NCBI GenBank assembly: GCA_001782075.1 | Contig: MFNO01000031.1 | Span: forward strand, 1 to 49,752 | Direction: 5' to 3' | From: Candidatus Levybacteria bacterium RIFCSPHIGHO2_01_FULL_38_26 | GTDB lineage: Bacteria; Patescibacteriota; Microgenomatia; Levybacterales; UBA12049 | DNA: 49,752 nucleotides | Shown here: positions 1 to 40,843 of the stretch, piece by piece | Layout of the letters: every line of letters begins with the position of its first letter | How positions within the stretch are numbered: position 1 is the stretch's first letter | The notes under the pieces: model-generated | Databases searched by the model: none | Told to the model about the DNA's origin: nothing | What the model saw: the letters and a program-made list of their open reading frames with translations, nothing else | Program-made: the position numbers and the translations under genes

Positions 1-1
1 A

Positions 2-250
2 ATTAAAAATAAACTTGATATCTCTCTTCAAAAGCATCATTCAAGAGGCATTGTAGTTCACGGTCACCAAGAGTGCGCGGGAAATCCGGTCGAGGATGAG
101 AGACACAAAGATGATATTCGGAGGTCTGTTGAGAAAGTAAAATCAATGATTAACTCTTCAATTCCAGTTATGGGAGTATTTTTAAAACGCTCCCAAAATG
201 ACGATAGAACTTGGGAGGCAGAAGAAATCATTACTAAAGTTTTTGTTTAA
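2..250 (+). CDS. C-terminal part of a carbonic-anhydrase-like protein (5' truncated)
   Basis: An open frame enters from the left edge and ends at the TAA at 248-250, giving 82 residues. It contains the stretch HGHQECAGNPVEDE followed by an amphipathic helix and a short C-terminal strand region. The HxxxCAGNPV-type motif resembles the zinc-ligand region of small proteins annotated as putative beta-type carbonic anhydrases (Pro_CA_2-like) in archaea and CPR. The N-terminal half with the remaining metal ligands lies outside the window, so catalytic competence cannot be judged. The family call is from motif memory only. Confidence 0.6.
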   Translation: MKNKLDISLQKHHSRGIVVHGHQECAGNPVEDERHKDDIRRSVEKVKSMINSSIPVMGVFLKRSQNDDRTWEAEEIITKVFV

Positions 251-323
251 TATGGTTTACCCACCGTTTATTTAATAGTAAATATAAGATATTTATTAAG
301 TCCTGAAGTAGTATTTAAGCATC

Positions 324-353
324 GACAAAATTTCCCACGTGGGATATTCTGTC
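324..353. repeat. 30-bp palindrome, left copy (core TCCCACGTGGGA)
   Basis: Two 15-base arms meet between 338 and 339. The left arm reads GACAAAATTTCCCAC, and 13 of 15 positions pair with the right arm. The 12-bp core TCCCACGTGGGA (333-344) is perfect. A second copy with the same core and the same GACAA ends lies at 1212-1241, beyond the wHTH/Cas2-like gene. This copy sits about 35 bp upstream of that gene's predicted -10 box, so it could be an operator or an element end. Confidence 0.8.
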
Positions 354-387
354 TATGTTAGCTTTACCTTAATTATCAAGGTGTCGC

Positions 388-393
388 TATAGT
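388..393 (+). promoter_or_regulatory. -10 box, leaderless-type promoter
   Basis: TATAGT ends 6 nt before the ATG at 400. Transcription would start at or next to the start codon. No convincing -35 hexamer is visible. Confidence 0.5.
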
Positions 394-399
394 ATTGAG

Positions 400-1104
400 A
401 TGAGTAATTTAAAACTCGGAATCGGAAATAGAAAGCGTAAGAGAAAAACTCGCATTGAAGATTTGCCCATTTCAGATATTAAAGATTCTCTAATTGAAGA
501 GATCTCAAGGAATCTTACGAGGCAAATTGATAGAGAAGCTTTTGACAAAAAGTATGCTACTGCAAAAATAATCTTGAAGCTTGTTGGTGCTGGAGTTTTT
601 CTAGCAGCTTCAATCGCTATGCCAAATCTTCCACGGGCTCTGAAGCCTTTTTTAGCGAATGAAGATGATTATGAAGCATGGAGGAGATTTAATATACCGT
701 ATCTTAAAAGGACCCTGAGGCGCTTGGAGAAGCAAAAGCTAGTCGATACTGGAGAAGAGGGTGGGGTAAAAGTGGTAAAAATAACAAACGCTGGAAAAAG
801 AAAAATTCTTAAATTTGCGATAGATGAGCTTAAAATTGAAAAACCTAAGATTTGGGATAGAACGTGGTGGATAGTTAGCTATGATATTCCGAAAAATCAA
901 GAAAACGCACGAAAAGTATTTCGGGAGTATCTAAAACTTTGGGAGTTTTATCCCTTTCATGAAAGTCTTTTTCTGCATGCCTATCCCTGTGAAAAACAAG
1001 TTGAGTTTTTGCGGGAGTATTTAGGTATTGGTGAATATGTCCGTATCATGCACGTCTCCAAGATTGAAAACGATAAGCTTTTTAGAGAGTTTTTTGACAT
1101 ATAA
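400..1104 (+). CDS. PaaX-like winged-helix protein with Cas2-like C-terminal domain
   Basis: A 234-residue protein. Residues 9-17 are strongly basic (NRKRKRKTR). Residues 56-73 form a hydrophobic segment that could be a buried or membrane helix. Residues about 95-140 look like a winged helix (two helices, then a beta wing around EGGVKVVKIT). Residues 155-234 have the ferredoxin-like Cas2/PaaX-M pattern, with WWIVSYDIP placing Asp162 at the end of strand 1 where Cas2 has its acidic residue. Proteins of this shape are common in CPR and are often auto-labelled Cas2 or PaaX. No cas1 or repeat array is nearby, so a regulatory or DNA-binding role is more likely than CRISPR adaptation. Palindromes with the same core lie on both sides. 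The start at 400 is supported by a -10 box 6 nt upstream. Confidence 0.75.
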   Translation: MSNLKLGIGNRKRKRKTRIEDLPISDIKDSLIEEISRNLTRQIDREAFDKKYATAKIILKLVGAGVFLAASIAMPNLPRALKPFLANEDDYEAWRRFNIPYLKRTLRRLEKQKLVDTGEEGGVKVVKITNAGKRKILKFAIDELKIEKPKIWDRTWWIVSYDIPKNQENARKVFREYLKLWEFYPFHESLFLHAYPCEKQVEFLREYLGIGEYVRIMHVSKIENDKLFREFFDI

Positions 1105-1211
1105 ACGAACCTAGAGAGTATTTTCTGGTAAACAACATTTATAAATGCTATAAAGCTTATGTCTGTTTTTTACTGGCTTATTCCGTGTGGTCTCAGATTA
1201 GAGTAGGCTTG

Positions 1212-1241
1212 GACAAATTTTCCCACGTGGGAGAATTTGTC
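1212..1241. repeat. 30-bp palindrome, right copy (core TCCCACGTGGGA)
   Basis: Two 15-base arms are centred between 1226 and 1227. The left arm is GACAAATTTTCCCAC, with 14 of 15 positions paired. It shares the perfect core and the GACAA/TTGTC ends with the copy at 324-353. It lies about 107 bp past the end of the wHTH/Cas2-like gene and about 140 bp before the promoter of the next gene. The rest of the 1105-1371 gap holds only AT-rich sequence and that promoter. Confidence 0.85.
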
Positions 1242-1350
1242 GACGGTTTTAGTTCTAATTAGTTGTGAGGTTTTGGTTCTAAATTGGATCAATTATTAAT
1301 TATTACTCAATCATTACAAGATAGAACGATTTTTAAATTCAGTCCTCCCG

Positions 1351-1359
1351 TGCTATAAT
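1351..1359 (+). promoter_or_regulatory. Extended -10 promoter of the multi-HTH gene
   Basis: TGCTATAAT, an extended -10 with TATAAT at 1354-1359, lies 12 nt before the ATG at 1372. The predicted leader is only about 5-6 nt, and no Shine-Dalgarno sequence is visible. Confidence 0.65.
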
Positions 1360-1371
1360 TAGCCTCGAATT

Positions 1372-2751
1372 ATGAGAGAGCAAGAGAAGCGACAATACAA
1401 TCAAATTGAAAGTAGTGGAAGAAGAGTTGAGCAAGAGTTTCCAAAAAATGGAGATGAGAGACTTAATGCTCTTCTAGGCTCTTTTAATATGCCTACGAAA
1501 GCAGTAGTTCAGCAACTATTGCCTTATAATGGCTATATTTCGCCTGACGCTTTAGTAAGAGATTTTCGAGAAGTATTCAAGGGAACAGAATTAGCAAGCT
1601 TTGATTCCAAGTCCATCATTAGTTACTGTTTTAATACATTATGCCCGATTGGTCTTGTAGCGCAAGAATATACTATAGAGTATTTTGGCAAGGATAAATT
1701 AGTAGGATTTGGACTTACAGAAGCAGGAGCAAAGTATGGAATACCAGCTGCATGTCTCGCGCTTTATTTTGAGAACGAGCGCAAACAGAGTCTTTATCCA
1801 ACTTTTGGAGCTATCCATAAAAAAAATTCTGAAGAGCAGCGTACGCCACATACAAGAGCAAAAATTCTTTGGCTTTTGAATGAATGCCCTAATTTAACAG
1901 AAAAAGAAGTAGCTAGGGAATTGGGGATTAACAACTCAACTGTTAAGAACAGCCTCGTTGCTTTAAAAAATGCAGGAGTAATTGACTATAAATCAATAAC
2001 ACCTAATACAGGTAAAACACAAGTTACTTATACAAAAGGAGAGTTGCCAGAGGCAGAAGTAAAAAAAGTTGGATCAAGAGTTTCATTAACACAGGACGTT
2101 GTGAGATTTTGTGAAGAATTAATAAATGATGGCAAAGATATTACACAAGATGCTGTATTTATAAAATTTCCTGAAGAGGTACGAGGAAAGTATAAAGCAC
2201 TCAGACGCGATATTAATATAACTCTTTCAGGTTTGGCGCATCAAGAATTTCTTCAAAGAGGACAGTTTATAGGTGGGAAGATACAATCTCATGCTCAAAT
2301 TACTGAGAAAGGTAAAGCTATTGTTAGTGGCTTTCTTACTCCTCTTATTGGTCTTTTGCAAGAAGATAATGCAACTCGGCATTGGTTAGAGAGAGAAATT
2401 GTGCCTGTAGTAACAAGAGACTTAAAAGCTTATGCACAGAATAGCGGTGAATTATATTATCCACATTCTCCATCTTTTTTAAGAAAGCAATTCCAAGAAA
2501 ATATTGGCAGATTAAGGGAGATTCTTTCTGTAAGTTCTAAACCATTAACTAATGTTGAGTTATCAGAAATAATAGGTATACATCAGAGTACAGTACGCGC
2601 CTATCTCAATAAAACACTAGCCTCAGAACTACAAATAGAGGAAAGAAAGGGCGTATGCTATTATAGCATGAAAACTAGAAGGCAAGATCTTCTCGACTCG
2701 TCTCTTTCGCCAAAGGCTTCAGGTGAATCGCTCGAAGAATATGAAATATGA
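1372..2751 (+). CDS. Multi-domain helix-turn-helix regulator-like protein
   Basis: A 459-residue soluble protein with repeated winged-helix-like units. Two are clear. Residues about 161-204 have an arginine-rich first helix, then LTEKEVARELGINNSTVKNS and an AGVI wing. Residues about 381-415 contain LSEIIGIHQSTVRAYLNKT. Residues 40-125 (ending in a GFGLTEAG-like wing) and about 240-315 look like two more degenerate units. I do not recognise a named family; the best call is a DNA-binding transcription regulator. Its stop overlaps the folC start as ATGA (2748-2751), so the two are probably co-transcribed and translationally coupled. That suggests, but does not prove, a regulatory link with the folate/thymidylate genes downstream. 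Confidence 0.6.
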   Translation: MREQEKRQYNQIESSGRRVEQEFPKNGDERLNALLGSFNMPTKAVVQQLLPYNGYISPDALVRDFREVFKGTELASFDSKSIISYCFNTLCPIGLVAQEYTIEYFGKDKLVGFGLTEAGAKYGIPAACLALYFENERKQSLYPTFGAIHKKNSEEQRTPHTRAKILWLLNECPNLTEKEVARELGINNSTVKNSLVALKNAGVIDYKSITPNTGKTQVTYTKGELPEAEVKKVGSRVSLTQDVVRFCEELINDGKDITQDAVFIKFPEEVRGKYKALRRDINITLSGLAHQEFLQRGQFIGGKIQSHAQITEKGKAIVSGFLTPLIGLLQEDNATRHWLEREIVPVVTRDLKAYAQNSGELYYPHSPSFLRKQFQENIGRLREILSVSSKPLTNVELSEIIGIHQSTVRAYLNKTLASELQIEERKGVCYYSMKTRRQDLLDSSLSPKASGESLEEYEI

Positions 2752-4250
2752 AAATTAGGAGCTACGAAGAGGCAATTCGATATTTAGAGGGTTTTATTGG
2801 CAAGGTTATATTTAAGGTAGATAAAGCAACTCTCAAGCATTATGATCCACTGGAGAGGATGAGAACACTTCTATCTCTTCTTGATAATCCTCAGAACAGG
2901 TTTCAATCGGTTCTTGTCGGCGGGACTTCAGGGAAGGGGTCAACTTCTTATCTTATTTCTCATATTCTAACAACTGCCGGCTATAAAACTGGCCTAACTC
3001 TTTCTCCACATCTTCAAAAAGTAAATGAAAGACTGCAGATAAACGGTGAACAAATTTCAGATACAAAATTTACTGATTTAGTTAATTTTATAACACAAAT
3101 AATTACGCAAATGAAAAAAATGTCTGTTGGTGCGCCGTCGTATTTTGAGATTTTGATAGCAATGGCATTTAAGTATTTCGCGGATCAAAAAGTTGACATC
3201 GCAGTTGTAGAAGTTGGGATGGGAGGAGAATTTGACGCGACAAATACTTTATATCCCCTAATTGCAGTTTTGACAAATGTTTCATTGGACCATACCAATG
3301 TCTTGGGAAGAACTGTAGAGAAAATAGCAAGGACGAAAGTTGGTATTGTGAAGGGTTCAGTCCATTCGCTTGGCGACTTGGTGGTTCCTCGGGGTCCTGC
3401 CGCTCGCTCGTCCCATCCGACGTCCTCGAAAAAAATGTCCTCGGGCTTGCGCCCTGCGATTTTTCTGCGGGCGCTCGATGGGACACCCTCCGCTCGCGTC
3501 ACCCCTCGGTTGGTTGTCGTTACCGGAGTAGAGCAGAAATCGGTAATAAAAATAATTCAGGAAAGGTGTAGAGAGCAAGGAGCTAAATTTTTTCTCTTGA
3601 ATAAGGACTTTGATTATAAAGTAAATAAGGAAAGCAGGATTTGGACGGAATTTGATTTTCAGTCTAAAGTAGTAAATTTAAAAAATCTTCATTTGTCATT
3701 ATTGGGACAATATCAAGTAGAGAACGCAAGTCTGGCTATTAAAGCAGCATTGGAGCTTAGAAAGTTTGGTTTTGAAGCTTCGGAAGAGAATGTCAGAAAA
3801 GCCCTAGAAAGTGCATTTTTCCCGGGGCGGTTTGAGTACATATTACATAATACCAAATACAAAATAGTCTTAGACGGGGCACATAATCCGATAAAAATGA
3901 AAAAGTTTTTAGAATCTCTTAAAAAACTTTTTCCCAAAAACAAAAAAATTTTTGTTATTGGTTTTAAATTTGATAAAGACGTAAAAAAAATGCTAGGGCA
4001 GATCTTAAAAGCGGCGGACAAATTAATTGTTACAGAATTTAGGGCAAAAACAGATATGAAACTTAACGCGGGGATGGACGTAAAAAGTATTAAGTATTAT
4101 GTATCTGGCGCTAATTACAGCGGGGGTGTTTACTGGGAAGAAAACTTAAAACGTGCCATGGGTGAGGCTTTTAAAATTGCAGAAAAAGATGATCTTATTG
4201 TAGTCACGGGTTCTTTGTATTTGGTGGGAGAAGTTAGAGATATGCTATAA
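2748..4250 (+). CDS. folC: Folylpolyglutamate/dihydrofolate synthase with an in-frame insertion
   Basis: An ATP-dependent Mur-ligase-fold enzyme that adds glutamate to folates and, in bifunctional forms, makes dihydrofolate. The P-loop GGTSGKGST is at residues 58-66, followed by the conserved SPHLQKVNERLQING region. A GMGGEFDATN motif and a C-terminal LDGAHNP motif are also present. At 500 residues it is about 60-70 longer than usual. The excess is mostly residues about 204-256, encoded by GC-rich palindromic DNA (about 3357-3512). It falls between the family segments KVGIVKG and VVTGVEQ, which normally lie close together. The start overlaps the preceding regulator gene. The frame stays open through the insert, so the enzyme may still be made. 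Confidence 0.92.
   Translation: MKIRSYEEAIRYLEGFIGKVIFKVDKATLKHYDPLERMRTLLSLLDNPQNRFQSVLVGGTSGKGSTSYLISHILTTAGYKTGLTLSPHLQKVNERLQINGEQISDTKFTDLVNFITQIITQMKKMSVGAPSYFEILIAMAFKYFADQKVDIAVVEVGMGGEFDATNTLYPLIAVLTNVSLDHTNVLGRTVEKIARTKVGIVKGSVHSLGDLVVPRGPAARSSHPTSSKKMSSGLRPAIFLRALDGTPSARVTPRLVVVTGVEQKSVIKIIQERCREQGAKFFLLNKDFDYKVNKESRIWTEFDFQSKVVNLKNLHLSLLGQYQVENASLAIKAALELRKFGFEASEENVRKALESAFFPGRFEYILHNTKYKIVLDGAHNPIKMKKFLESLKKLFPKNKKIFVIGFKFDKDVKKMLGQILKAADKLIVTEFRAKTDMKLNAGMDVKSIKYYVSGANYSGGVYWEENLKRAMGEAFKIAEKDDLIVVTGSLYLVGEVRDML
3357..3515. repeat. GC-rich palindromic element inserted in frame in folC
   Basis: About 155 bp of markedly GC-rich DNA lies in an AT-rich gene. GTCCCATC at 3410-3417 pairs with GATGGGAC at 3477-3484. 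A run of seven A (3429-3435) faces a run of five T (3460-3464) about the same centre (near 3447). GGGC/GCCC at the middle forms a small hairpin tip. Outer arms (CCTCGGGG near 3388, CCCCTCGG near 3502) are imperfectly complementary. The boundaries are estimated from where conserved FolC protein sequence stops and resumes. Confidence 0.65.
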
Positions 4251-40807: not shown

Positions 40808-40843
40808 GACAACTAAAAAATGCGATCGCATAAATTAGTTGTC
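40808..40843. repeat. 36-bp palindrome with GCGATCGC core
   Basis: Outer arms GACAACTAA (40808-40816) and TTAGTTGTC (40835-40843) are exact complements. The centre ATGCGATCGCAT (40820-40831) is a perfect 12-bp palindrome. Only three base pairs (A/A at 40817-40819 against 40832-40834) fail. It lies in the gap between msrB and the small gene at 40918. Its GACAA/TTGTC ends resemble those of the palindromes at 324 and 1212. The rest of the 40733-40917 gap is AT-rich and unremarkable. Confidence 0.85.

Follow-up and report, generated by a model that had tools for sequence, protein, structure and literature searches.

Paired private palindromes bracket genes for minimal PaaX-like proteins in Patescibacteria and suggest a self-controlling cassette

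The window analyzed here is a stretch of 49,752 nucleotides that makes up contig C31 of the Candidatus Levybacteria bacterium RIFCSPHIGHO2_01_FULL_38_26 genome (1.13 Mb, 98.5% complete). Near its start, a gene for a PaaX-like protein is bracketed by two 30-bp palindromes (Table 1). An earlier note, made from the letters of the window alone, had reported that these palindromes share a perfect core, and indeed both copies contain TCCCACGTGGGA and match each other at 82% across 38 nt. It had also assigned GACAA...TTGTC ends to both, but the end of the first palindrome is CTGTC. The distance of about 75 bp that it gave for the upstream copy is 76 bp when counted from the first base of the palindrome and 46 bp from its end to the ATG, and its downstream distance of 107 bp is exactly the gap between stop codon and palindrome. 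When one mismatch is allowed, the core occurs twice in the window, as compared to 0.05 occurrences expected from shuffles, and 0 of 100 shuffles reached two; across the 1,134,707-base genome these are its only occurrences and there is no third site at this threshold. The upstream copy lies on a predicted sigma-70-type promoter with 9 of 12 matches in its two hexamers. This alone is at chance level, as 5 promoter-like sites were counted and 4.6 were expected, and the predicted promoter is convincing only when the relatives discussed below are counted in. Neither palindrome contains a terminator-like site, and no Rfam family exceeded its gathering score within positions 1-3000 of the window. A 459-aa protein carrying multiple helix-turn-helix motifs (HTH_5 at 8e-12) is encoded at positions 1372-2751, and a single relative of it, 34% identical, was found among the 61 genomes searched.

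Table 1. Positions of the features in the window (contig C31)
Feature	Position	Strand	Basis or remark
Predicted sigma-70-type promoter on the upstream palindrome	322..350	+	-35/-10 hexamers, relatives
-35 TCGACA (predicted)	322-327	+	followed by a 17-bp spacer containing the palindrome core
Upstream palindrome (predicted promoter-operator), GACAAAATTTCCCACGTGGGATATTCTGTC	324..353	.	13/15 positions pair
-10 TATTCT (predicted)	345-350	+	
Gene for PaaX-like protein, 234 aa, ATG start	400..1104	+	ORF, PaaX_M domain, fold match
Winged helix-turn-helix domain, residues ~88-143	661..828	+	predicted structure
Cas2-like (PaaX_M) domain, residues ~151-234	850..1101	+	Pfam match, alignment, predicted structure
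Downstream palindrome, in direct repeat with the upstream copy, GACAAATTTTCCCACGTGGGAGAATTTGTC	1212..1241	.	14/15 positions pair
Orphan palindrome (36 bp) of a different type, GACAACTAAAAAATGCGATCGCATAAATTAGTTGTC	40808..40843	.	matches the pair of locus L062 in genome G054

The description of the protein in the earlier note as a winged helix joined to a Cas2/PaaX_M fold was borne out. PF20803 (PaaX_M) matches residues 151-223 at 1.9e-14, scoring 53.9 bits against a cut-off of 24, a winged helix is predicted N-terminal to this domain, and PF09827 (Cas2) remains under its cut-off (20.2 bits; cut-off 23.8). Within the Cas2-like domain the residues W156, D162, S189 and C197 are invariant. A sequence search of solved structures with the protein returned no match, and fold comparison alone gave one; the best was PaaX of E. 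coli W (PDB 8A39, probability 1.0), and next came other DNA-binding proteins as well as Cas2 chains. The Cas2-like domain runs to the last residue, 234, and the protein is without the C-terminal, phenylacetyl-CoA-sensing domain of PaaX. On its predicted structure, it is a minimal PaaX-like protein composed of a winged helix and a Cas2-like domain. A CRISPR link was rejected because the source genome has no cas1. Pfam and NCBIfam scans of the protein revealed no HUH tyrosine transposase family, and no transposase family or known recombinase or nuclease motif matched it. The window gene is the only family member located in the source genome. Its close homologues come from genomes of the Microgenomates group (Levybacteria, Gottesmanbacteria and Daviesbacteria), and comparison of relatives points to purifying selection on the gene, with dN/dS 0.04-0.12 for pairs unsaturated at silent sites.

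Homologues were gathered from the class and then from the phylum, and the DNA of their loci was retrieved for inspection of palindromes. A similar palindrome pair brackets the homologue at 68 of the 78 class loci and at nearly all of about 30 further loci elsewhere in the phylum, such that the co-occurrence of palindrome and gene family, which the earlier note had proposed to check, was indeed found. When both palindromes and their similarity were scored jointly, the median was 33.5 for the family as compared to 24.0 for 303 control genes, which were other genes of the same loci (Mann-Whitney P = 1.6e-34), and 58 of 77 family loci scored above the 99th percentile of the controls; the low score of the window in this comparison arose solely because the second palindrome falls slightly beyond the search distance. 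As another control, the longer, three-domain PaaX-like proteins of the same bacteria mostly lack a pair, with locus L031 as a possible exception. Judging from these loci, bracketing is the rule for the family and no coincidence of the window. For 81 of 97 downstream palindromes (95 distinct, as two loci were entered twice) the most similar upstream copy was the partner at the same locus, although the comparison with control genes is the unbiased figure because pairs were selected partly on similarity. In genome G522, for example, seven paralogues are accompanied by seven different palindrome pairs. Palindrome sequence is evidently private to each locus and unlike even between paralogues of one genome. 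A parS-like site, suggested by the CACGTG core, was rejected, since the core varies by locus to include CGATCG, CATATG, CTCGAG, CCATGG and others. Close relatives of the window gene have GACAA...TTGTC ends around centers such as CCGATCGG, CCCATGGG or CGCCATAGCG. Family genes are carried by about a quarter of 380 sampled Patescibacteria species, at up to eight each, in cassettes of about 0.6-0.9 kb. Two loci show additional arrangements. At L138 (genome G067, ~1700-4050) a 92-aa gene (MVEIISRTVSEKCRGCKTSF...) occurs twice beside the unit, and each copy sits 3′ of the same CTCGAG palindrome, as if co-controlled. At L103 (G116) a region of about 2 kb holds at least four palindromes of the same type as well as dispersed direct repeats, resembling a small array around the unit.

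The form of these sites points to duplex DNA. Over 194 palindromes, symmetry was high at the center (0.73-0.95 for pairs 0-3) and at the outer pairs 11-14 (0.87-0.92), and weak at the intermediate pairs (0.49-0.62), a profile that fits a dimer-type site in which each half is contacted twice, at points separated by roughly one helical turn. The two copies of a pair agreed better in direct orientation in 60 cases and in inverted orientation in 17, with 20 tied (direct versus inverted, P = 9e-7); at three loci they were identical at 30 of 30 positions in direct orientation and at 20-22 in inverted orientation. Since direct agreement is better even for imperfect palindromes, the members of a pair seem to be copies of one another rather than symmetric sites of independent origin. 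In the clade of the window, the upstream palindrome coincides with a predicted promoter consisting of TTGACA, a 17-bp spacer that holds the core, and TATxxT. Indeed, 17 of 18 loci with GACA ends, taken from the top of the list, had a promoter score of at least 10, as compared to 1.9% of random places, and at other loci the edge of the palindrome runs into an extended -10, TGTGATATTCT, as judged by eye. The downstream palindrome is located a median of about 17 bp past the stop codon, regardless of the strand of the neighboring gene. With the contribution of the Cas2-like domain removed by regression, operator similarity correlated with winged-helix similarity (Mantel partial r 0.23; 0 of 500 permutations), and about equally with similarity of the Cas2-like domain (partial r 0.24), which leaves the two domains undistinguished as the reader of the site.

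Neighboring genes around the units are not conserved, no partner gene is conserved, and palindrome pairs are retained while the neighbors change. A search for empty sites, also proposed in the earlier note, revealed three in sister genomes (G253, G622 and G187), all of which lack both palindromes, and no target-site duplication was seen at the sites inspected. In G253 about 30 bp of intergenic DNA are found where G358 and G378, of the same genus, hold a unit. Similarly, a gap of 82 bp in G622 corresponds to 784 bp in G470, where the insertion reaches to about 10 bp from each palindrome and leaves the promoter-like stretch of the next gene undamaged, and G187 lacks both the unit and an adjacent ORF that are present in G288 of the same genus. 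Around the window cassette, the left neighbor is truncated by the contig start and the right neighbor has a counterpart in a single relative (34% identical). The gene tree mixes host families, with 29 changes as compared to a least possible 13, to which paralogy contributes too. Closest homologue pairs are 77-87% identical and mostly come from different species, and no near-identical copies that would point to recent transposition were seen within one genome. From these comparisons, it appears that palindrome-gene-palindrome is gained and lost as a single block.

Several further readings of these loci were considered and rejected. A 30-bp target-site duplication, or insertion of a circular palindrome-gene molecule at a palindrome already in place, is at odds with empty sites that are without a palindrome. 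Integration at gene ends, as indicated by duplicated 3′ ends of host genes, was counted for 6 of 76 units and 8 of 245 controls (Fisher P = 0.085). The G470 unit (D273) and a solo palindrome with the same core in G622 (B292907) could not be treated as one site because their neighbors are too diverged. Finally, phage and plasmid records gave no match and viral contigs gave one distant match, which argued against a phage or plasmid origin. Individual loci with duplicated ends are nonetheless on record. The 3′ end of a penicillin-binding protein gene is repeated beyond the unit at L036 (~2898-2947 and 3798-3847), and at L137 and L073 the 3′ end of the neighboring conserved gene (at L073 probably tgt) is repeated on the far side of the unit. 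A related case is L086 of G288 (2620-3220), where a 152-aa reverse-strand ORF lies between two copies of a probable ychF 3′ end; this stretch adjoins the unit and is missing as a whole from the sister genome G187. Such duplicated neighbor ends could be a mark of recombination at gene ends.

Palindromes also occur apart from the genes. Approximately 27 extra palindromes matching units were identified in three related genomes (1.12 Mb read), and a reversed-sequence control gave 0. These solo sites share the palindrome alone with the units, and their flanks are unrelated. Among 21 with a clear context, 6 were located between convergent genes, which account for 12% of gaps, and 2 between divergent genes; most were near gene 3′ ends. 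They numbered 0-3 per type in the three genomes, and 5 for one type in G054. Solo sites therefore do not look like a promoter regulon, as far as their placement indicates. At three places two solo types share an intergenic region at a distance of 50-70 bp (G622 C9:292907/292953 and 270481/270547; G470 C6:37187/37235). The source genome (G000) itself carries, in addition to the orphan 36-bp palindrome in Table 1, a second copy at C32:6686-6721. This type forms the pair around the distant homologue L062 in G054, and no cognate gene for it was found in the source genome. Among 100 genomes searched, its GCGATCGC motif was present only in the source genome, G016 and G054 (7 copies). The earlier note had stated that palindromes widely scattered without the gene, or homologues that regularly lack them, would undo the link; the homologues regularly have them, the window type is not scattered, and a few solos do exist in some other genomes.

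The private bracketing pair, the promoter overlap, and the gain and loss as a block make each unit look like a self-controlling portable cassette. We consider it probable that the unit is a self-repressing and context-independent cassette that is inherited and exchanged as palindrome-gene-palindrome. The genomes contribute to this reading the matched pairs, promoter overlap, dimer-type symmetry, direct repeats, purifying selection, and block presence or absence, and we infer from it DNA binding, repression, dimerization, and a role for the downstream site. Specifically, the Cas2-like domain would build a dimer, whose winged helices would read both halves of the palindrome as double-stranded DNA. 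A dimer on the upstream palindrome, over the gene's own promoter, would then block RNA polymerase. PaaX is known to shut off its own promoter by keeping RNA polymerase away (PMC9493321), and this analogy, together with the predicted promoter spanned by the palindrome and the match of sites within loci, lends good support to the autoregulated operator pair that the earlier note had suggested. The same dimer would bind the downstream site of the same type at the 3′ end of the gene, and this second binding site would close the cassette, most likely as a roadblock or insulator, or else with two dimers bridging the gene; looping with helical phasing was rejected because the spacing of the pairs shows no such phasing (Rayleigh P ~0.3). 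Binding downstream would make expression of the cassette independent of its landing place, and divergence of each paralogue to its own palindrome would allow several cassettes to coexist without cross-talk. Against autorepression, its simple form does not explain solo sites near gene 3′ ends.

A rather unlikely alternative is a selfish mobile element with palindromes that are acted on by the protein it encodes, as a REP-RAYT (REPtron) analogue based on a winged helix and a Cas2-like protein. The palindromes would be its ends, solos would be scars or ends that had dispersed, and a catalytic role would fall to the invariant aspartate, none of which we regard as likely. Palindrome, gene and palindrome are nearly always found together, repeats are direct even when imperfect, solos do not share flanks with units, and orphan solos occur in a genome without a cognate gene; the sporadic distribution, the family mixing on the tree, the invariance of D162, and the insertion that ends about 10 bp from the palindromes at one empty site also speak for mobility. 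However, known recombinase and nuclease motifs are absent, and the same aspartate is also present in the PaaX_M fold of regulators. Moreover, near-identical intragenomic copies and target-site duplications were not seen, solos number 0 to about 5 per type rather than hundreds, and purifying selection is strong. Thus, from the self-contained mobile unit put forward in the earlier note, gain and loss as a block is retained, given three empty sites and pairs kept amid changing neighbors, and a mobile unit recognized by its own Cas2-like protein is considered unlikely. In full, this alternative would amount to a new single-gene selfish element, analogous to REPtrons and of independent origin, in which a PaaX/Cas2-like protein and no known transposase maintains and spreads the cassette in Patescibacteria, a proposal we view with some skepticism. 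It is similarly doubtful that the protein spreads low-copy solo palindromes too.

It is quite improbable that the protein is an ordinary local transcription factor, with two sites that control itself and its neighbor and with solos as its regulon. The predicted promoter overlap would be expected for such a factor, extra sites exist near units L088, L090, L104, L138 and L139, and some types have solo sites, but the neighbors are unconserved, a third site for the window protein is missing from its genome, solos are seldom in divergent promoter regions, and the downstream site stays close behind the stop codon whatever the strand of the neighbor. RNA hairpins or intrinsic terminators at transcript ends, or chance, are very improbable, for although the palindromes are able to fold and solos lie near 3′ ends, a hairpin should have a free center and a continuous stem, and here the would-be loop is highly symmetric (0.87 as compared to 0.46 expected), the middle of the would-be stem is weak, the terminator and Rfam searches of the window were negative, and control genes lack the pair pattern.

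No description of a cassette of this kind was found in the open-access literature searched for PaaX- or Cas2-like, palindrome-bracketed families in Patescibacteria. Provisionally, then, the novelty lies in the private palindromes that come in pairs and in a cassette distributed across the phylum, and the protein itself is a minimal PaaX relative. The uncultured Patescibacteria have tiny genomes and yet keep this family under strong purifying selection. The roughly 100 natural protein-palindrome pairs, all different and several per genome, constitute a ready-made system for studying divergence of DNA-binding specificity, and they are equally suited to the study of insulation between paralogues. 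Should the protein mobilize the cassette as well, this would be a mobile element that relies on an enzyme of a new kind, and it might parallel the recruitment of Cas2-like proteins into DNA integration.

Known systems resemble the cassette in part. It differs from DNA transposons by its direct repeats, by the lack of a transposase match, and by inspected empty sites without duplication. With Cas2 and VapD the protein shares a ferredoxin-like domain and an invariant aspartate past the first strand, but it falls below the Cas2 cut-off, is fused to a winged helix, and is encoded without cas1 in the genome or a conserved partner gene. TnpA-REP has been proposed to move REP palindromes. In REP-RAYT systems every gene comes with flanking palindromes of its own, which are also dispersed extragenically, and as in the cassettes two cognate palindromes bracket the gene and co-evolve with it, with several types per genome (PMC2817692). 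However, RAYTs belong to the HUH tyrosine transposases and have as substrates single-stranded hairpins that carry a GTAG head, their flanking REPs are inverted, and REPs often exceed 100 copies per genome, whereas here a PaaX-like protein is associated with direct repeats of symmetric palindromes, inferred to act as duplexes, of which the front copy is a predicted promoter and 0 to about 5 per type (none for the window type) are dispersed. The cassettes thus resemble REP-RAYT loci without belonging to them, given the differences in protein class, type of site, orientation and copy number. From PaaX, the E. coli phenylacetate repressor (PF20803), the window protein differs in being shorter, without the C-terminal domain, and in having no paa genes seen adjoining its gene, and PMC9493321 does not mention a further site at the 3′ end of the PaaX gene. 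Nevertheless, the two have in common a winged helix and a Cas2-like central domain, with a fold probability of 1.0, and PaaX autorepresses its promoter and has a long inverted-repeat site (PMC9493321), features that find a counterpart in the predicted autorepression and the palindromes of the cassette.
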